In this document: piece after piece, positions 3,458 to 24,768 of the stretch
Layout of the letters: each line of letters starts with the position of its first letter
Numbering within the stretch: position 1 is the stretch's first letter
DNA from: a virus
IMG/VR virus record: IMGVR_UViG_3300035128_000027
Span: 1 to 38,305 of that record
Strand: one strand, 5' to 3'
Length of the DNA stretch: 38,305 nucleotides
Translations under genes and position numbers: made by a program
The notes under the pieces: model-generated
The model's database searches: none
What the model saw: only the letters and a program-made list of their open reading frames with translations
What the model was told of the DNA's origin: nothing

Positions 3458-3877
3458 TTATTTAGCCATACTATGTTTTACTATAAATTCATAAGCAGCT
3501 CCAAGCCCTTGAAACATATTGTTAAAAAATGATAAGCTTGTAGTTTTACCATTATCATGTCCACAACTAACCAGATATTTATTTCTATCTACAGAATATT
3601 TAATATAAATATCATATGGTTTGTTATTACATTTAACTAATGATTTTCTTACATCTAAGTTAGTTATCATACTTCCATTATCATTAAGTTTTTTACTACC
3701 ATCATTATTTAAATAATCATCTTCTTTAATTTGTTTATTAAATAATATGCTTTCTTCTAATTGAGATCCTAATAATGATTTGGTAATCTTTTTAGTTACT
3801 GGATATTGTATTTTATCATTTCTGAATACATAACCTTTTACTTGTGTACCTGTCTTAGCTTTGTTATTATTATCCAA
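3458..3877 (-). CDS. hypothetical protein upstream of terS
   Basis: A 139-residue soluble protein of unknown function. It has no membrane segment or recognisable motif; the C-terminal half (about residues 85-139) is more structured, with KPYDIYIKYSVDRNKYLVSCGHDNGK and a final helix. It is the first gene of the head/packaging cluster behind an extended -10 promoter at 3931-3939. The start is TTG at 3877 with an excellent GGAGG site nine bases upstream. Its place before terS suggests a packaging or regulatory role, but that is inference only. Confidence 0.7.
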   Translation of the reverse strand: MDNNNKAKTGTQVKGYVFRNDKIQYPVTKKITKSLLGSQLEESILFNKQIKEDDYLNNDGSKKLNDNGSMITNLDVRKSLVKCNNKPYDIYIKYSVDRNKYLVSCGHDNGKTTSLSFFNNMFQGLGAAYEFIVKHSMAK

Positions 3878-4216: not shown

Positions 4217-4942
4217 TTATTTCAAATTATATTTCTTTTTCATGTAATTCTCAAAGTTTTTTAAGATATGACAAAGTTTTCCAAAATCAATATTAGTTTT
4301 TTCTTCGTAATCTTTTCCTGTAAACAAACCTTTATCATATGATTCTTTTAATATTCCTGTATAACCTTCGACTTTTTCAACTTTATATGTATAACCGTAA
4401 TATTTATAAATTGCTTTTGTGGTTGCAATTGCAAATTTATTTATATTACTTAAAAAGAAATTAACATCTTTTATATTAGTGTGAAATATAAATTCAGCCA
4501 ATACCGCTATGGCTTTTGTATTTCTCAATTCTGCAAAGCCTGTTGAATATACTGTATTGTCCTTCTTTACACCTCGATCAGATGTCGGAGTAATTGGGGA
4601 AATTTCATTATACCAAAGAGTAGCTGCTCTTTTGCCTGAGTTATTTGTATTCAAGTATGAATAATAAACTTCGCAACCACGAGCTGAACTAGCCCCAGCA
4701 TTTGTATGAAATGCCCAATGTGTATTGGCATTAAAGCTATTTGATTCATTAATAATTGCAGATAAAGAAGAACTTTTATTATTATTTTTTTCGATTATAA
4801 AGTCCTTGCCATGATTACCACTTTTTATAAGCTGTTCAACTAAATCACGAAGAATAAACATTCTTTGTTCTTCTGTTCCATAATTTCCAACACCTTTGTT
4901 GTCTTGCTGTGTTGAAGCACTTAAGTAAATTTTATGTGCCAT
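4217..4942 (-). CDS. endolysin, N-acetylmuramoyl-L-alanine amidase
   Basis: A 241-residue lysin predicted to cleave the lactyl-peptide amide bond of peptidoglycan at the end of infection. The N-terminal 180 residues read as the Amidase_3 subfamily that begins YLSASTQQDN...YGTEEQRM, with the zinc-site segments THWAFHTNAG (about residue 80) and LAEFIFHTN near residue 150. The C-terminal 55 residues (GYTGILKESYDKGLF...) are a short helical tail, probably for wall binding. No signal peptide is present, so export depends on the holin just upstream. ATG 4942 is preferred over the ATG two codons earlier because GGAGG lies seven bases from it but only one from the earlier one. Confidence 0.87.
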   Translation of the reverse strand: MAHKIYLSASTQQDNKGVGNYGTEEQRMFILRDLVEQLIKSGNHGKDFIIEKNNNKSSSLSAIINESNSFNANTHWAFHTNAGASSARGCEVYYSYLNTNNSGKRAATLWYNEISPITPTSDRGVKKDNTVYSTGFAELRNTKAIAVLAEFIFHTNIKDVNFFLSNINKFAIATTKAIYKYYGYTYKVEKVEGYTGILKESYDKGLFTGKDYEEKTNIDFGKLCHILKNFENYMKKKYNLK

Positions 4943-4984
4943 TTTCATTCCTCCATTTCATTATTATTTATTCTTAGCTTCCTT

Positions 4985-5182
4985 TTAAAATTTATCTGGT
5001 GTTTTAGGATTGTTTAAAATCCCGAATACTACAAAAATGGTTAATACTGCGTCAGCTGCATTTTTTATTGAATCAGATTGTACAGCATTTAAAATTCCAA
5101 ACTGATTAAATACTAATAATATAGTTGACACAATACTGATCCAAACGATTTTACTTTTAAGTCTGTTTTGAAAATTACTCAT
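4985..5182 (-). CDS. holin, phi LC3 family-like
   Basis: A 65-residue membrane protein with two hydrophobic segments (IVWISIVSTILLVF at about 12-25 and AADAVLTIFVVFGIL at about 42-56) joined by a short turn. It ends in the NNPKTPDKF tail typical of phi-LC3-type holins. It would permeabilise the membrane to release the amidase encoded next. ATG 5182 follows AAAGGAGGG. It is the first protein-coding gene of the late region and lies immediately after the large structured leader/ncRNA. Confidence 0.88.
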   Translation of the reverse strand: MSNFQNRLKSKIVWISIVSTILLVFNQFGILNAVQSDSIKNAADAVLTIFVVFGILNNPKTPDKF

Positions 5183-5215
5183 ATTACCCTCCTTTTAAAA
5201 ATGTATTTATAAATA

Positions 5216-5999
5216 ACATTAGATGTTACGATACTAAGTAAAAAATATCAATAACATCTAATGTCGAATAAACTAATTTATATGGATAAAATTTATTATT
5301 TGGACTAGTTTCTACTTGATTTAGTCCCTAAATGAAACTAGTAAACGGTTGGACACAAACAATAATTTTTTCTAAAATGAAACCTTGGATCGCTAAGTAA
5401 ATAATTTATATATTATTTAGATTTCTAATAACCCAATACTGGAATTTTTGTTTATGGTCTATGTTTCCACCTACTTTTTTATTTCGGTTTGTTTCCATAC
5501 CATATTATAAAACGCTCTTGGGTATTAGATTTATTTTATTTCTAATCTTCGACTATACACGTTATTATCGCATGTATAGCCTACTAATTAGAACCATCCT
5601 GCCACCTATCATTTATTAATATGCTTTGTTAACGTTCCCAACTAGTATGGTTAACTTAAGGCGTTTAAAAATAATCAAAAACTTTTACCTGAATAGGTAG
5701 TAAGGACTTGCACCTTATACAACGACTTTGTCAAAGCCAATTGACTTCGTAAGGACTTGCACCTTAGTAACTCACTATGTCTACCTATGAAAGGATTGAC
5801 TACCTCTCTATTTGTTAAGGTCTTACAACATTTCCCGCACTAGGTACTGAATGCCTTGCTCTTCCACAGTTTTTTTAATTATGATATTTAAAAAGAAGTT
5901 GTTAAACTCTGGTTTTCCCGCCTTGAGCTTATCAACTTCCAATGTATACTAACTATTAATATAGTTTGGTCTGGACGGGAATCAAAACAAACTATATTA
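5216..5999 (-). ncRNA. large structured non-coding RNA candidate (ROOL/GOLLD-like class)
   Basis: About 780 bases with no credible gene but many long helices on the minus strand: a 12-bp hairpin (5988-5999/5957-5968), a stacked hairpin (5933-5939/5895-5901 plus 5925-5930/5904-5909), an 8-bp stem (5781-5788/5693-5700) enclosing two identical 17-base hairpins (5750-5766 and 5701-5717), a 10-bp hairpin (5571-5580/5552-5561), a 9-bp bulged helix (5518-5526/5427-5436), a 9-bp stem with a nested hairpin (5334-5342/5304-5312) and a closing 13-bp hairpin (5252-5264/5216-5228). Loop TTCCCG (5976-5981) is complementary to loop CGGGAA (5915-5920). A sigma70-type promoter lies at 6114-6142, so the transcript would start near 6107. 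Size, ornate folding and phage setting resemble ROOL or GOLLD RNAs, but family membership is not established. Confidence 0.7.
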
Positions 6000-6113
6000 C
6001 ATCAACAAAAATTAAAAAATCTTCTAACAATTCCATTAAAAAAGAATTTTCTCCTACGACATTAAAATTTCAAGGTTTAAAAAAAGGTCTTTTTATAATG
6101 TACTACAATAACT

Positions 6114-6142
6114 ATTATATCAATTATTATGTATTAATTCAA
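6114..6142 (-). promoter_or_regulatory. leftward (late/ncRNA) promoter
   Basis: On the minus strand TTGAAT (6142-6137) and a perfect TATAAT (6119-6114) are separated by exactly 17 bases. It would transcribe the structured RNA and then holin and amidase. The -10 and start region contain TATAATAGTTATT (6119-6107). The same 13-mer occurs in the operator-bearing promoter at 11.5 kb, so one regulator may control both. Confidence 0.65.
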
Positions 6143-6154
6143 TGATTATTTTAT

Positions 6155-6198
6155 TTCTTAGCTTCCTCATAAAATTACATAAAAAAGGAAGCTAAGAA
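6155..6198. repeat. inverted repeat 1 of the AGGAAGCTAAGAA element
   Basis: TTCTTAGCTTCCT (6155-6167) and AGGAAGCTAAGAA (6186-6198) are perfect 13-base inverted copies around an 18-base spacer. The same element forms the inverted repeat at 6628-6715 and recurs singly elsewhere. It lies just upstream of the leftward promoter and at the left edge of the origin-like region. It may be a protein-binding site or a cruciform-forming element. Confidence 0.7.
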
Positions 6199-6220
6199 TA
6201 TATTTAAATTATAATTTCCA

Positions 6221-6616
6221 TTTAGGGAATTTTCACTAGGGAAAAATGACGACATTTTAAATATCAAAAGGGAAAACTTAAAAAAAAACACTGACAAAAA
6301 AAACATTTAACACCCTTCAAACTATGATTAATACTAGATAGGGAAATTAGGGAAGTTTCAATTTTTTTTTAGCTCTCTATAGGAATTTTCACTATGGGAT
6401 ACATTTGTCCATGTTGTTTTTGTTTGATGGAATATGTTGGTTACGATAATATATATTTAAAATCTTAGTTGAGTATATTAAATTAATAGATTGTAAATTC
6501 CCTAAATTCCCTTTGAATATGACTGATTTATAGAGATGGAAATAATTACAATAACGTATTGTATAATAGTCTATGACTAAATAGGGAAATTAGGGAAACG
6601 CCATTTTTCCCTAAAC
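6221..6616. other. putative replication origin: TAGGGAA iterons
   Basis: About ten copies or near-copies of TAGGGAA lie in both orientations in 400 bases. Two nearly identical tandem pairs read ATAGGGAAATTAGGGAA (6338-6354 and 6581-6597). An inverted pair is at 6496-6512, and two spaced pairs share AATTTTCACTA between the half-sites (6221-6243 and 6378-6399). The stretch holds no gene on either strand, lies between divergent promoters and next to a DnaA box and the helicase/polymerase operon. These are properties of an iteron origin for a phage-encoded initiator. The initiator is unidentified. Confidence 0.55.
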
Positions 6617-6627
6617 AGTCATTTGAC

Positions 6628-6715
6628 TTCTTAGCTTCCTCATTATTACATATTTCAAAAAATAGTTATCCACAGAGAAAACATACCAGCATTTTACATA
6701 AAAGGAAGCTAAGAA
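6628..6715. repeat. inverted repeat 2 with consensus DnaA box in its loop
   Basis: TTCTTAGCTTCCT (6628-6640) and AGGAAGCTAAGAA (6703-6715) flank a 62-base AT-rich loop. The loop contains TTATCCACA (6666-6674), the exact consensus DnaA box. The flanks share further identity with inverted repeat 1 (ATTACATA next to the left arm, TTACATAAAA next to the right arm), so the two repeats look like duplicates. The arrangement suggests host DnaA acts at the phage origin. Confidence 0.6.
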
Positions 6716-6731
6716 AATATTACAAAATTAG

Positions 6732-6789: not shown

Positions 6790-7005
6790 ATGACAAGGTT
6801 AAAGATTAAATTAATAGAAAAGGAAATTTTAATTAAAACATTAGCTGATAAATGTGGTGTAACTTCTTATATCATGGGGCAAAAAATAAAGTATAATAAT
6901 AGATTAAAACTACCTGAAATAAAAATCATTTTAAAAGAATTAAATTCAACTTTTGAAGAAATTTTCATTGATGATAATAATGATGATTTTGAGGTAGAAC
7001 TATAG
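6790..7005 (+). CDS. small HTH (XRE/Cro-like) DNA-binding protein
   Basis: A 71-residue protein. Residues about 13-50 (KTLADKCGVTSYIMGQKIKYNN...LPEIKIILKEL) fit the Cro/CI helix-turn-helix pattern, followed by an acidic tail. It is the first early gene, just behind the rightward promoter and next to the iteron cluster. It may therefore regulate the divergent promoters or take part in origin recognition. The start at ATG 6790 is set by AAAGGAG eight bases upstream and by the promoter position. It lacks the long C-terminal domain of CI repressors. Confidence 0.75.
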   Translation: MTRLKIKLIEKEILIKTLADKCGVTSYIMGQKIKYNNRLKLPEIKIILKELNSTFEEIFIDDNNDDFEVEL

Positions 7006-7020
7006 TTAGGAGCTGATTGG

Positions 7021-8886
7021 ATGAAGCATAAAAGGATAGTGTTTGATGATCCAGGGACGTTATTAGATAGTGAAAAATATAGTCAAATGGATGATGATAC
7101 ATTTGAAGCATATATCGAAGATAAAAACAACATAAATATACTTTTTGATGCAGAAATTCAAAATTTAAAGGATCAAAAAATCAATATAATTAGCATTGAT
7201 AAAGACGTTGAGAACGTTGCATTGTGTTGCATTATTGAAGATCCTGAAGATAAAAAAATACCTAGATTGAATTTATTGCCACAAATTACAGATTGTGACA
7301 AACAGGGAAAATCAATTACAGAGGTTAAAAGCCAAGGTGATACTGAAACGAGTAATATTATAACCCAATTATTAAAAAGTCAAGGAATAGCTGTTTGTAT
7401 ACATAAAGAAGATGGCATAGAATTTGACTGTCCTATCTGCAACCAGCACGATATAAAATGTAAAATATTTTATAATACTGGTTTAATAAATGCATTTAGG
7501 AATACATGTTCTACAGATAAAGAACATATAAAACTTTTCAACACTCTATCCAATAAAGCAAGGGCTTTAATAAAAGAAGCCAAAAAAAATAAAAATCAGG
7601 AACTATTATCTGAAAAAGCTCATAAATTACAGGTACCGATCAAAGTAGATAAAAATCTTGAAATGTATGAGTTCTCAGATGAAAAAGGCTACTGGATTAA
7701 ATTATCGACTCGTAGATTAGAAAAATACATATACGATCAATGTGAGCCAGTAGATAGAAAAGAATACAATGATTTATTAGGGGAAATCAGAAATGATTAT
7801 ACACCAGAAGAATTTGCCCCAGGTCATTTAATGAATATGCAAAATGGGATCTATGATATTAAAGAAGATAAACTATTAGAAAAAGATGAAAACGCTTTTT
7901 TTACTTATTTAATACCAGCTAATTATGATCCAGCAGCTAATTCAGAATTACTATATAATACAGTAAAACAAATATTTGGTAATAATGATAAAATGATAAC
8001 TGAATTTAAAAAAGCCCTTGGCTATTCAATACATGATACATGCCAATTTGAAAAAGGGTTTGTATTAAGAGGCACTAAAAATGGATCAAATGGTAAAGAT
8101 ACAATTCTTGGATTATTAGTAGGCTGTAAAGAAAATAACTATAGAGGTCTTTTCAGTCATTTATCAGTTATTTCATCAATCACACGATTAAACGATACGT
8201 TTTCACATAACTTAATTGAAAATAAAAAATTATGGGTTGATACTGATTATAACGAAATGTATCTTAAGGGAACAGCTATAATAAGGAAAATGATATCAGG
8301 TGTAACTATAGAAATACGAGAACCTTTTAAACCTCCAAGAAATATAAATGCAAATTGTAAGCCATGGATAGCTTGTAATACACTACCAAAACTTGAAAAT
8401 AATGACGGTGGTTGGTGGCGTAGATGGACTATATTTGATTGTCAATTAACATTTGGTGGAAAAGGTGGGGCTAAAAAAGATCCAACTTTGAAATTCAAAT
8501 TAAATACTGATGTTGTTTATAGTACATTATTTAATTGGATGGTAGAAGGTTATAAGATGGTAGAAAATTATAATATTACTGATGGTGAATTTTTCATGGA
8601 AAATGATGCAGCTATTGATTCCTGGAAAAAACAAGCCAATAACATAATATTATTTATTGAAGAAGAATGCAATATAACTCCAGATAAGAAAACCAAACGA
8701 GCAACATTATATAAATATTATAAGCAACATTGTCAAAATTCTGGAACTAAACCACTAGGAAAACAAAATTTTTATGAAAGGTTGATATATGAGTCTTCTA
8801 TATTTCATAAAAGATCCAACGGAATAGATTATTTTGAAGGAATAGAATTGAAAGGGGAATTTAATAATGAAGATACTGGACTTTGA
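7021..8886 (+). CDS. D5-like primase/SF3 replicative helicase
   Basis: A 621-residue replication protein. Residues about 130-160 hold a CPIC-type zinc-finger remnant (CPICNQHDIKC). About 265-310 contain the D5_N pattern (GHLMNMQNGIYDIKEDKLL). The SF3 ATPase has its Walker A variant GTKNGSNGKDT at about 352-362, Walker B NKKLWVDTDYNEM, then KPWIACNTLPKL and the arginine-finger segment GGWWRRWTIFDC. The C-terminal part resembles the D5/Pox helicase winged tail. No clear AEP primase catalytic motif is visible at the N-terminus, so priming activity is uncertain. It follows the HTH gene by 15 bases and overlaps the polymerase by 20, showing a replication operon. Confidence 0.9.
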   Translation: MKHKRIVFDDPGTLLDSEKYSQMDDDTFEAYIEDKNNINILFDAEIQNLKDQKINIISIDKDVENVALCCIIEDPEDKKIPRLNLLPQITDCDKQGKSITEVKSQGDTETSNIITQLLKSQGIAVCIHKEDGIEFDCPICNQHDIKCKIFYNTGLINAFRNTCSTDKEHIKLFNTLSNKARALIKEAKKNKNQELLSEKAHKLQVPIKVDKNLEMYEFSDEKGYWIKLSTRRLEKYIYDQCEPVDRKEYNDLLGEIRNDYTPEEFAPGHLMNMQNGIYDIKEDKLLEKDENAFFTYLIPANYDPAANSELLYNTVKQIFGNNDKMITEFKKALGYSIHDTCQFEKGFVLRGTKNGSNGKDTILGLLVGCKENNYRGLFSHLSVISSITRLNDTFSHNLIENKKLWVDTDYNEMYLKGTAIIRKMISGVTIEIREPFKPPRNINANCKPWIACNTLPKLENNDGGWWRRWTIFDCQLTFGGKGGAKKDPTLKFKLNTDVVYSTLFNWMVEGYKMVENYNITDGEFFMENDAAIDSWKKQANNIILFIEEECNITPDKKTKRATLYKYYKQHCQNSGTKPLGKQNFYERLIYESSIFHKRSNGIDYFEGIELKGEFNNEDTGL

Positions 8887-11503
8887 TATAAAATTTGCAA
8901 TTATTGACTTGGAATGCTTGGAGGACTATTTCAGTCTCCAAGTATCCAATGAAAAAAATGACATAGTAGGTATAATAGAGTGTACTGAAAACAGCCATTT
9001 TTTTAAATTATATAATAAGTTGAAAAAAAGTACTAGACCAATGTATGTTTTTTCCATAGATTATGACAAAACAATGTTAAATGCAATGTGTAAAGTTATA
9101 GAACAAATAAATAGAGGTTTTTTAAAAAATGTAAATATAAATAAAATGCTAAGAGAAATCAATAATTATTTGATTCCAAAAGTACCAGCTGACAAAGTAA
9201 ATTACTTTAGATTAAATCGGGAATTTTGGCAATATAAAATAAAATATGAAAAAGAGAATCCAACAAGGGATTTTAAAGATTGTTATGATTATGCATTACA
9301 AAGAATAAAAACTCAATATACTGGAAAACCTTTAGAATTTATAGAAAAATATCATTTTTTATTTGGAAAATCACCATTATTTAAAAAACTAACAATAAAT
9401 GAAATACCCAGGATCTATTATTATATAGTGATTAATAAAGATAAAGAAGTAAGACCGTCAATATCATTAAAGAAATTACAATTGATTAGAGAAGGATATA
9501 ATGTAAAATTTGATTTCAATAAATATAAAACTATTGCAGCAGTAAAAGAAGATGGATTATATAACGATTGGATAAAATATAGTAAAAATGATATAAGCTC
9601 ACTAAAAAAATTATTCATGGATAAGCCATTAGATGATATTAGAAAAAGAATATATGCAATAAAAGCGGTCCAGAAAATAAAACCAGATTTTAAATGGACC
9701 AATGATATGATTTTTTCAGAAAATAACACTAATTTAATATGTGGTATTTTAGGTATAAATAATCCTAATAAAAAAATAGTAATAGATTATCCGAATTATA
9801 TTAAGACTAATTTTAAACCTTTTAATGATTTTGTGAATTTTGTAAATCAAAATAGCTCCATAGAAAAAGATAGAGATATTAAAAAGATGTATTGTGCAAA
9901 ATATAATGTTGATTATATAGAAGATGATAAGAATATAGTTGATGGAAACAATGTAGATCTTAGGGTCGGATCTTTCAATAGTTTCTTTTATAAGGATTTA
10001 GAACTTGTGTTTGGTTTAGGTGGTATTCATGCAGCTGTTTCCGATTATATAGGTAAAGATCTGGATCATTTAGATTATACAAGTCAATATCCATCTGTAA
10101 TTTTACAATATAAAGAATTGTTTAAAAATATTATAGATGTAGATTTATATGAAGCCATTTATAATATGCGTGTAGAATATAAAGCAAAATTAAAAACTTT
10201 AGAATATGGTACTGATGAATATAATGAATGTTTAATGGTTTGTGAAGGTTTAAAATTAATTCTAAATTCAACATATGGATTAATAAATAGTAATTTCAAT
10301 CTACCTATAAGCTGTAAACCACTAGGCAGATTTATTTGTCTTAAATGTCAAAGTTTATTATTAAATTTATTAGAAAAACTAATAAATCCTATCAATGTTA
10401 ATACTGATGGTGTTATATGGAAAAATGATGGTAGCTTAAATATAGACCAGATTATAAAAGAAGATGAAGATAAATATTTTAAATTAGATAATACTAAAAT
10501 TGAAAAAATAATTCAAAACAATGTAAATAACTATATAAAAGTAGTTAATGGCAGAATGAAAACAAAAGGAAAATATAATATCTCCATAAAACAAAGGATT
10601 AATACAGATGAAAAATTAAGTGTCAATTTAGAAAATGCCTTAAACCTTTTCCAAAATAAAGAAATAGAATGTTATCCGATCTATTTCGGGAAAAAAATAG
10701 ATATAAAACATGGTACCGATATTCCATATTATTTGACAAATGAAAAACAAGGTTATCCAGCTATTAAAGCACTAGTAAAACCACTGATATTAAATATAGA
10801 TAATCAAAAACTTTATTTTACAAGTGATAAAGATAAAGCTGATAAAGAAATATATCAACTTTATGCCGAAAAAACATTAAAAAAAATATATGATTTTACT
10901 TTATTTACTAAATCTAAATCTATAATGCCATTTATCGAATGTGTATTAACTCCAGATTCAGATGAAAATAATAAGATTAAAAATAAAATCAAGTTGAAAT
11001 TATATAGAATGTTTGGTAGTGAATTAATTAATTTTAAAGGTTATAAAGGAGATTTAAAGCATGATAGTTTTAGAGATAATACACCTTTAAAGCCATTAAT
11101 TCATTATAAAAAAACAGAAATATTAAAATCAACATATTGTAAGGGTTTTGGATTATCTCCAAAAGGAAAATTTTTAATTATTGATGTTGACATTTATGAT
11201 AAAAAAACTGGAAAACATAAAGAAGGATGGGAAATTATAAAGTCTTTATTAGAAGAATTAGATAAATTAGAAACTTTTCAATGTTGGAATGATAAAACAT
11301 TAGAATACGGTAATAAAAAATATATATTTAAATATCCTCATGAGAAAATATTGAAAATAAATCCTGAATATAAAAATTATATAGAAATATTAACAAACAC
11401 AGCTGCTATCTGGTCATTGCCGAAATGTACACCAACATATGATAATAATTGGATATCACCAAATAATATACCGATAACTTTGTCGAAAAAAATTATTAAA
11501 TAA
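8867..11503 (+). CDS. family B DNA polymerase with 3'-5' exonuclease
   Basis: An 878-residue replicative polymerase. The N-terminal proofreading domain shows Exo I DLE (about residues 13-15), an Exo II-like FSIDYD (about 62-67) and Exo III YSKNDI (about 238). Palm motif A reads DYTSQYPS (about 401), motif B LKLILNSTYG (about 460-469) and motif C NTDG (about 511) in place of the usual DTDS. The second aspartate, the catalytic one, is kept. About 300 residues follow motif C and match no motif I recognise. Whether it is protein- or RNA-primed cannot be told by eye; no terminal protein gene is visible. It overlaps the helicase gene. Confidence 0.88.
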   Translation: MKILDFDIKFAIIDLECLEDYFSLQVSNEKNDIVGIIECTENSHFFKLYNKLKKSTRPMYVFSIDYDKTMLNAMCKVIEQINRGFLKNVNINKMLREINNYLIPKVPADKVNYFRLNREFWQYKIKYEKENPTRDFKDCYDYALQRIKTQYTGKPLEFIEKYHFLFGKSPLFKKLTINEIPRIYYYIVINKDKEVRPSISLKKLQLIREGYNVKFDFNKYKTIAAVKEDGLYNDWIKYSKNDISSLKKLFMDKPLDDIRKRIYAIKAVQKIKPDFKWTNDMIFSENNTNLICGILGINNPNKKIVIDYPNYIKTNFKPFNDFVNFVNQNSSIEKDRDIKKMYCAKYNVDYIEDDKNIVDGNNVDLRVGSFNSFFYKDLELVFGLGGIHAAVSDYIGKDLDHLDYTSQYPSVILQYKELFKNIIDVDLYEAIYNMRVEYKAKLKTLEYGTDEYNECLMVCEGLKLILNSTYGLINSNFNLPISCKPLGRFICLKCQSLLLNLLEKLINPINVNTDGVIWKNDGSLNIDQIIKEDEDKYFKLDNTKIEKIIQNNVNNYIKVVNGRMKTKGKYNISIKQRINTDEKLSVNLENALNLFQNKEIECYPIYFGKKIDIKHGTDIPYYLTNEKQGYPAIKALVKPLILNIDNQKLYFTSDKDKADKEIYQLYAEKTLKKIYDFTLFTKSKSIMPFIECVLTPDSDENNKIKNKIKLKLYRMFGSELINFKGYKGDLKHDSFRDNTPLKPLIHYKKTEILKSTYCKGFGLSPKGKFLIIDVDIYDKKTGKHKEGWEIIKSLLEELDKLETFQCWNDKTLEYGNKKYIFKYPHEKILKINPEYKNYIEILTNTAAIWSLPKCTPTYDNNWISPNNIPITLSKKIIK

Positions 11504-22303: not shown

Positions 22304-22990
22304 TTATTTTTTTAATTTAGCAACCAAATATAATGTACCTAGCAACATTATACATCCACCGCTAACCAGCATAAACAACGGTTTTTCTTCTCCAGTTTTA
22401 GGCAAGTTTTTATTATTAGCAAGTAACTTGCTAGTTTTATTTTTGCTATTGCTAGGTTCATTGCTAGGTAATACTGGGGAAATAGTAGGATTTAAAGTAG
22501 GTGTTATAATTGTTTCTGTTGGTTCAGGTGGTGTATTAGGTAAAGTAATCATTGGTGTTATAGTTGGTTCATCTGTAATAGTTGGTGTCGGTGTCGATAT
22601 TATTTCAGATCTACTAACTACAAAATAAAACCAATAATATAAATTATCATATTCACCTATTTCATTTTGTTTTTCAACTTTTACAAATATTATCTTTAAA
22701 CCTTTTTTTAAGAATTTTTCATTGTAACCAGAATAAACTAAAATATCATCTTTATAACTTTTCATATCGATTATACAATATGGATTTGTCGTAGTTATAG
22801 ATTCACCAATATTAATTTTATTTCCATCAATTGTAACATTTGTATCGTATTCTGGTTGATTGCTTATTTGGTCAATAGGTGTTATTTTCTTAAAAAATAC
22901 CTTATATTCATAAGTTGTATCGGCATAAGATAAATTTACGAATAAAACTAAAAATGCTACTACAAGTATAAAACTAATTAATTTTTTCAT
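22304..22990 (-). CDS. secreted, sortase-anchored (LPXTG) surface protein
   Basis: A 228-residue protein with a signal peptide (KKLISFILVVAFLVLFVNLSYA, cleavage near 23). A folded region of about 110 residues follows, then a Thr/Pro-rich stalk (about 112-170) and a complete cell-wall sorting signal: LPKTGE, a hydrophobic helix (MLVSGGCIMLLGTLYLVA) and a KLKK tail. Sortase would link it to host peptidoglycan, so it acts on the bacterial surface, not in the virion. It is the last gene of the late operon, behind AAAGGAG. A role in blocking superinfection or changing host adhesion is inferred from location only. The folded region is not recognised. Confidence 0.85.
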   Translation of the reverse strand: MKKLISFILVVAFLVLFVNLSYADTTYEYKVFFKKITPIDQISNQPEYDTNVTIDGNKINIGESITTTNPYCIIDMKSYKDDILVYSGYNEKFLKKGLKIIFVKVEKQNEIGEYDNLYYWFYFVVSRSEIISTPTPTITDEPTITPMITLPNTPPEPTETIITPTLNPTISPVLPSNEPSNSKNKTSKLLANNKNLPKTGEEKPLFMLVSGGCIMLLGTLYLVAKLKK

Positions 22991-23672: not shown

Positions 23673-24768
23673 ATAATTTAAACCTCCTTATAATCGATTT
23701 TACACTAACACCAGGTGTTAATTTATAAGACTGTTTTACAATCTTATAAATATAATCTAGTCCCAGATCCGTATTTTTAAATCTATAAGCATCGCCTTGC
23801 CAGGGAATACCATCTGTTAATCTTGGAGTAATATAAGCATGTTTATAACTAATTGCTTCCTCTAGTTCTAACATTTTTCTTAATTCTCGTCTAGCACGTA
23901 AATCAACATAATCTTGACTTACTGCCTCAGACTGAAAAATTTTAGTTACATATCGCCCAATACTTGTATAACTAAATGGGTGTCCCGCTAATCCTTCGTC
24001 TTCCATACTTAAAGTCGCTTCAAGCGGCGGTGTATCTTGCTGTAATTGATTTACTATAATTTTAACGATATTATATCCATCACTATAATCAACATCTAAA
24101 TTTATATTATCTTCATATAATGACCTATTATTGTCTTCAAAAATATGAGCTATATTTGGAGTAGGACTCCAAGGAATACCCCTATAAACACCATTTCCAC
24201 TAACCCATAATGGATAGTAGTTAATCATGTTTAATAGACTATTTATAATAAATAATTTACTTCGTCCTAATTCATAACTTATATCCTCTGATAATGTCTC
24301 GTCACTAGGTTCTATATTATATATTACCCAGGTCCCAACTGAATCTAATAATGATTCTATTGCAGAAACTACATTGGTTCCTTCTGAAAAAGTTTGACTA
24401 ACCAATGTCTTATCCTGGTCTAATGCTTTCAATAAATCATATCCGCTTATTTTTCTACTTACATTACCTGTATTAAGATTTTTAGTTGGTGATAGTAACA
24501 TGTAATGCCCTAATGGAATTTCATAGGTAACTCCATCAACAGTCAAACAATACCATGGCTTTATTAAATCTTTTAAATAATTTATTTCTGATAAATGTTT
24601 AATTTCAAAATCGGCACCTGTAATAATATCTTGTTCAAAATCCATTTTAATATTTGCATTTTCGACGTAATTAGTTATAAATTGACTATGTTTATACATG
24701 TCATTTTGTAGGGTTAATAATTCAAATTTAAAAGTTTCTAATCCTCCATTATCAAAAATCGTAATCAT
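23665..24768 (-). CDS. tail hub/baseplate protein, ReqiPepy6 Gp37-like
   Basis: A 367-residue structural protein. The N-terminal half carries segments typical of Gp37-like and tail-hub proteins (GGLETFKFELLTLQND, GADFEIKHLSEINYLKDLIKPWYCLTVDG, YEIPLGHYMLLSPTK, SRKISGYDLLKALDQDK); the C-terminal half has RARRELRKMLELEEAISYKHAYITPRL and GDAYRFKNTDLGLDYIYKIVKQ, the strand pattern of the hub's lower domain. It should form the ring at the tail tip below the large fibre protein. Confidence 0.8.
   Translation of the reverse strand: MITIFDNGGLETFKFELLTLQNDMYKHSQFITNYVENANIKMDFEQDIITGADFEIKHLSEINYLKDLIKPWYCLTVDGVTYEIPLGHYMLLSPTKNLNTGNVSRKISGYDLLKALDQDKTLVSQTFSEGTNVVSAIESLLDSVGTWVIYNIEPSDETLSEDISYELGRSKLFIINSLLNMINYYPLWVSGNGVYRGIPWSPTPNIAHIFEDNNRSLYEDNINLDVDYSDGYNIVKIIVNQLQQDTPPLEATLSMEDEGLAGHPFSYTSIGRYVTKIFQSEAVSQDYVDLRARRELRKMLELEEAISYKHAYITPRLTDGIPWQGDAYRFKNTDLGLDYIYKIVKQSYKLTPGVSVKSIIRRFKLYV

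Follow-up and report, generated by a model that had tools for sequence, protein, structure and literature searches.

What RNA, if any, is made from a gene-free stretch of nearly 900 nucleotides at the head of a phage late operon, and how much of that stretch does it occupy? The question is raised by positions 5216 to 6107, minus strand, of the viral DNA analyzed here over its full 38,305 nt ("the window"). The original prediction for this locus was of a giant structured RNA with a promoter just upstream, similar in size and complexity to ROOL and GOLLD and either a member of a known family or a new class, lying directly upstream of the holin gene, with lysis thereby implied.

A structured, gene-free stretch on the minus strand

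The minus strand of 5216-6107 holds no open reading frame (ORF) of at least 50 aa, and neither of the two short plus-strand ORFs (52 and 59 aa) is credible as a gene. Folded as minus-strand RNA, the 892 nt reach -201.8 kcal/mol (z = -5.7 relative to 20 dinucleotide-shuffled sequences), confirming a gene-free, helix-rich stretch and, together with the compensatory changes described below, supporting a structured noncoding RNA on this strand. The individual hairpins that had been named were also recovered, i.e., a perfect 13-bp hairpin (5216-5228/5252-5264), a 12-bp hairpin within 5957-5999, and one of about 11 bp within 5551-5581. The structure is nonetheless uneven across these roughly 900 bases, with minus-strand z values of -0.96 for the 5′ flank, -2.3 for the core, and -3.7 for the 3′ flank (-2.7 for the latter on the plus strand), and only positions 5412-5788 have a homologue. 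Upstream, the TTGAAT-N17-TATAAT sequence is present as described and includes an extended -10 TG, but sites resembling promoters exceed chance only modestly across the region (23 versus 16.1; standard deviation, 3.6).

A core conserved as RNA in two phages

Among IMG/VR phages, a relative found via its terminase (L002) matches the core with 90% identity over 382 columns and with sharp ends; homologues of both flanks are absent from it. The core is the top-ranking of 1190 windows of 380 columns compared between the two genomes (90.0% identity, with the runner-up at 87.4%), the mean across the alignable genome being 75.6% (standard deviation, 6.0). A second contig, L032, derives from the same phage as L002 (99.995% identity over 18.4 kb), and the distinct core sequences known number two, that of the window and that of the L002/L032 phage. 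A blastn search with the region found no homologue among phage and plasmid sequences, core-pattern scans of the collection recovered only the L002/L032 phage, and a D5 primase alignment scan yielded no further relatives. Certain candidates were rejected: the sole genome_contigs match to the core patterns (L048) falls within a Gramella coding gene and is a chance match, and matches to a double T-loop pattern were mostly collagen-like coding repeats.

A coding reading of the core was rejected, given indels of 1-2 nt relative to L002 and no frame in common. As RNA, the two sequences yield an RNAalifold consensus of 100 pairs, of which none is broken, five are changed on both sides, and seven on one side. 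With the same 42 substitutions placed randomly on the window core as the null, the five double compensatory changes compare with a mean of 1.4 (P about 0.01), and the consensus energy of -68.2 kcal/mol compares with -53.2 (standard deviation, 5.2; P = 0.005). The minus strand is preferred both by the consensus (-68 kcal/mol versus only -52 on the opposite strand) and by the fold of the window core (-81 versus -63 kcal/mol). The clearest single case is the hairpin at 5551-5581, with three doubly compensated pairs. Covariation, proposed from the outset as a means of judging this RNA, is represented by compensatory changes between two sequences, which support the predicted structure overall without settling each individual helix. 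The core is kept by evolution as an RNA, on the minus strand, in an equivalent genomic slot in two phages.

Table 1. Features of the RNA locus, in minus-strand order from upstream to downstream.
Feature	Positions	Strand	Basis
Promoter-like site TTGAAT-N17-TATAAT, extended -10	6114-6142	-	Consensus match only
Nonconserved 5′ flank that may be a leader and includes the 12-bp hairpin (5957-5999)	5789-6107	-	Without homologue in L002
Conserved RNA core, 377 nt	5412-5788	-	Homologue L002:6534-6913; consensus fold
5′ tRNA-like domain; P1 (5781-5788 with 5693-5700) closes a multihelix junction	5693-5788	-	Consensus fold
T-arm-like hairpin 1, sequence identical to hairpin 2, 49 nt upstream of it	5750-5766	-	Direct repeat D3; loop changed at one point in L002
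T-arm-like hairpin 2, UAAGG-UGCAAGU-CCUUA, stacked on P1	5701-5717	-	Invariant in L002
Domain 2, a branched stem containing a GUUAAC/GUUAAC helix	5601-5682	-	1 double, 1 single compensatory change
Domain 3, a stem that includes the long hairpin (5551-5581)	5540-5593	-	3 double, 3 single compensatory changes
Domain 4, long irregular stem	5432-5522	-	1 double, 1 single compensatory change
3′ flank, with perfect 13-bp hairpin (5216-5264); not conserved	5216-5411	-	Without homologue in L002
Holin gene, downstream, outside the conserved unit	4985-5182	-	PF04531; gene start at 5182

Genomic setting

The window and L002 genomes are collinear, and in both the small terminase gene lies downstream of the core, which heads the late strand. 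In the window, the core is followed by the holin gene and then by one for an amidase endolysin (PF01520). In L002, the core begins 9 nt past a tRNA-Gln; next come a tRNA-like stretch (6928-7013) and tRNAs at 7014 and 7091, and the gene past these tRNAs occupies the slot of window positions 3458-3877. The L002 RNA is thus not followed by a holin, and the terminase region comes after the tRNAs. Since tRNAs stand after the L002 core, the holin is not part of the conserved picture; its placement directly 3′ of the RNA region holds for the window but does not extend to the relative, and the proposed tie to lysis is unsupported. Moreover, because tRNA-like neighbors flank the core, the RNA is limited to approximately 0.4 kb in L002, and with a conserved unit of about 377 nt the designation "giant" is not supported. 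The tRNA-cluster location is a property of the L002 core, zero tRNA genes having been found in the window's genome.

Two of the L002 neighbors are themselves odd tRNA-like genes: the one at 6928-7013 has a good T-arm and a cloverleaf-like fold and receives no ARAGORN call, and the one at 7014-7085 has a defective anticodon loop.

A tRNA-like 5′ domain

In the consensus fold, helix P1 pairs AUAGGUAG with CUACCUAU over 8 bp, closes the first 96 nt of the core, and shows no sequence variation between the window and L002. The hairpin UAAGG-UGCAAGU-CCUUA, with its 5-bp stem and 7-nt loop of the T-loop type, ends 0 nt before the 3′ strand of P1. A helix of 7-9 bp directly after a 5-bp/7-nt hairpin, i.e., the layout of an acceptor stem and T-arm, is thus found in the window and also in L002, and the first 96 nt are predicted to reproduce, as geometry only, the acceptor/T-arm stack of tRNA. 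The likeness to tRNA and tmRNA lies in this stack; the core differs from both in that neither the tRNA and tmRNA models nor ARAGORN gave a match or call for it, and in that no recognizable anticodon arm, tag frame, or CCA end was found in the core RNA. A loop-loop kissing pair could form inside this domain, but alternative hairpins fit equally well and the contact is not claimed here.

The T-arm-like hairpin in other phages

A collection scan with a 16-mer of the T-arm-like hairpin returned 38 other viral loci. The hairpin lies in noncoding DNA in approximately 13 lineages, seven of which have it no more than 200 nt from a tRNA and in every case on the strand of that tRNA; in an eighth (L068), it follows a tRNA-Trp on the same strand. 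None of the 14 lineages with the hairpin in coding DNA has it near a tRNA (Fisher P = 0.002 versus noncoding), an association that is softer than the P value, phage noncoding DNA being rich in tRNA arrays. Loci away from tRNAs also occur (L051, L053, L064, L076, and L080). In the noncoding group, helices starting 0-2 nt past the hairpin exceed those of the coding group in length (Mann-Whitney P = 0.0008), and these adjacent closing helices differ from phage to phage (e.g., TGTTAGGAG/CTCCTAACA, TAATTGTAATAT/ATATTACAATTA, and TAGTAGGG/CCCTACTA). The 11-mer GGTGCAAGTCC is present as a single copy in 12 of 13 such records and as two copies in the other, with 0 matches for the reversed control. Rfam searches of 15 hairpin loci gave nothing beyond tRNAs, one tmRNA, and one manA RNA, and relatives of the L070 and L050 elements were not found in the named phage collection. 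On the minus strand of L071, at 1635, there is a second UGCAAGU hairpin, with the stem CTGAT/ATCAG and an adjacent closing helix GCTATAT/ATATAGC.

In phage Felix O1 (L097:3078-3146; AF320576.1, about 24189-24257), the identical 17-nt hairpin, closed by ATTTRGG/CCTGAAT, lies between tRNA-Asn and tRNA-Tyr, in a noncoding spacer element of about 57 nt. This spacer is conserved in approximately 106 records (Felixounavirus, Mooglevirus, and Suspvirus), its copies being too conserved to inform covariation. It resembles the core in its hairpin, in a closing helix 1 nt off, and in its position within a tRNA array; unlike the core, it is only about 57 nt long, is without domains 2-4, and carries no name in the annotations consulted.

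Relation to known RNAs

Against Rfam 15 at gathering thresholds, the whole window gave no match, the ROOL, GOLLD, OLE, and HEARO models put forward with the original prediction included. Permissive searches (E <= 5 and E <= 10) of 4800-6500 and 5400-5800 produced no credible match, and Rfam searches of the window, the core, and L002 returned only chance matches and tRNAs.

ROOL is a large, ornate RNA of phages and prophages that is often close to tRNA islands, and GOLLD is a phage RNA near tRNA islands with a conserved 3′ region and a variable 5′ region, many GOLLD RNAs exceeding 800 nt (PMC12286853). The proposed likeness to these RNAs holds for the general kind, that of phage tRNA islands, and for the pairing of a conserved with a variable part as in GOLLD, but not for identity: neither Rfam model matches, the core is shorter than ROOL, and the conserved unit is 377 nt where GOLLD RNAs are often more than twice that length.

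T4 RNA C (species 1) and RNA D (species 2) are small, stable, structured RNAs from the tRNA region of T4, with roles unknown (PMC3014915). When folded, T4 RNA C (rnaC; L096:1409-1547) presents CCGGG-UUCGAAU-CCCGG stacked on an acceptor-like stem of seven positions with two U-U mismatches, other hairpins replacing the D and anticodon arms. It is like the core in this stacking of a T-arm on an acceptor-like stem, a resemblance of layout only; it differs in its length of 139 nt and its canonical T-loop UUCGAAU, the T-loop of the core being UGCAAGU and some 270 nt of core continuing past the tRNA-like domain.

Proposed explanation and alternatives

Bacterial RNase P recognizes the coaxial stack of acceptor stem and T-arm, and RNase Z cleaves at the 3′ end of the acceptor stem. 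The 5′ domain would thus serve as a processing handle read by host RNase P and/or RNase Z, with host tRNA-processing enzymes freeing the RNA from the long late transcript in the manner of the adjoining tRNAs in L002. Once freed, the RNA would act in trans in the late phase, its body consisting of domains 2-4. We lean slightly toward this reading as a whole, i.e., a new RNA of the phage tRNA-island kind, about 0.38 kb long, that heads the late strand, is processed by tRNA enzymes, and acts in trans. Release by processing, to which the tRNA-like layout and the L002 tRNA neighbors point, is plausible while falling short of probable, and action in trans may be deemed somewhat probable. Speaking for the proposal are the top conservation, the compensatory changes, the strand preference, the tRNA setting in L002, the P1/T-arm layout, the recurrence of the hairpin elsewhere, and T4 RNA C; speaking against it are the two core sequences (n = 2), a tRNA-free window, the lack of a tRNA model match or CCA, and the hairpin loci away from tRNAs.

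First among the rivals stands a late-operon leader acting in cis, e.g., a processive antiterminator or attenuator, that would work on the nascent transcript to set the extent of late transcription. The equal slot and strand in both genomes, upstream of late genes, would suit such a leader, as would the finding that no intrinsic terminator was detected between the RNA and the holin. Yet in L002 the RNA is separated from the late genes by tRNAs, whose processing would cut it loose; none of the known antiterminator RNA families gives a match; and the T-arm hairpin is found elsewhere in tRNA arrays. We thus regard a cis-acting leader as unlikely.

Less likely still is a true giant RNA of approximately 0.9 kb, a cage former like ROOL or GOLLD with a conserved core and variable flanks. 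The folding of the entire 892 nt at z = -5.7 is in its favor, as is the location of ROOL and GOLLD near tRNA islands, GOLLD itself being conserved at its 3′ end and variable at its 5′ end (PMC12286853). It is countered by the absent Rfam match, the space of about 0.4 kb between tRNA-like neighbors in L002, and a 5′ flank without excess structure.

Very improbable is a 5′ UTR element timing holin and endolysin translation; it would suit the window, where the RNA immediately precedes the holin gene, but the L002 RNA precedes tRNAs and no holin, and the holin-proximal flank is the nonconserved part. A functionless, decaying remnant of a tRNA array, suggested by the tRNA-like pieces and by tRNAs that are present in L002 but not in the window, is the most improbable reading of all, given that the core is the most conserved stretch of the genome and has retained compensatory changes.

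Our overall verdict is a real and conserved RNA that forms a new family, outside Rfam, of an already recognized but unexplained kind of phage RNA. This distinct family would join ROOL, GOLLD, and T4 RNA C and D among the tRNA-island RNAs. It also offers a lead to a shared tRNA-mimic module, in that release by RNase P or RNase Z, if true, would account for the presence of such RNAs among tRNAs, and Felix O1 and T4 provide tractable laboratory models. A broader grouping is more doubtful, namely a widespread and so far unrecognized class of phage noncoding RNAs, mostly single-copy and mostly located in the tRNA island, that would combine the acceptor/T-arm module (T-loop UGCAAGU) with domains specific to each phage. 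Its members would come from the phage of the window, from those like Felix O1, and from several further lineages, and T4 RNA C, familiar for many years but unexplained, would be a cousin.

Other features of the window

A near-identical contig, L003, crosses the ends of the window (38305 to 1), and the window is therefore a complete, circularly permuted phage map. The plus-strand gene at 8867-11503 encodes an 878-aa protein without a Pfam match in which motifs like those of family-B DNA polymerases (DYTSQYPSV, NSTYG, and VNTDG) were recognized by eye. On the minus strand, 22304-22990 encodes a protein with a signal peptide, a TPT-rich linker, and an LPKTG cell-wall anchor, which suggests a Gram-positive host. 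Finally, the interval between the early and late operons (6150-6720) contains inverted repeats that may be operators or origin sites, with AGGAAGCTAAGAA present in four copies and TAGGGAAATTAGGGAA in two.
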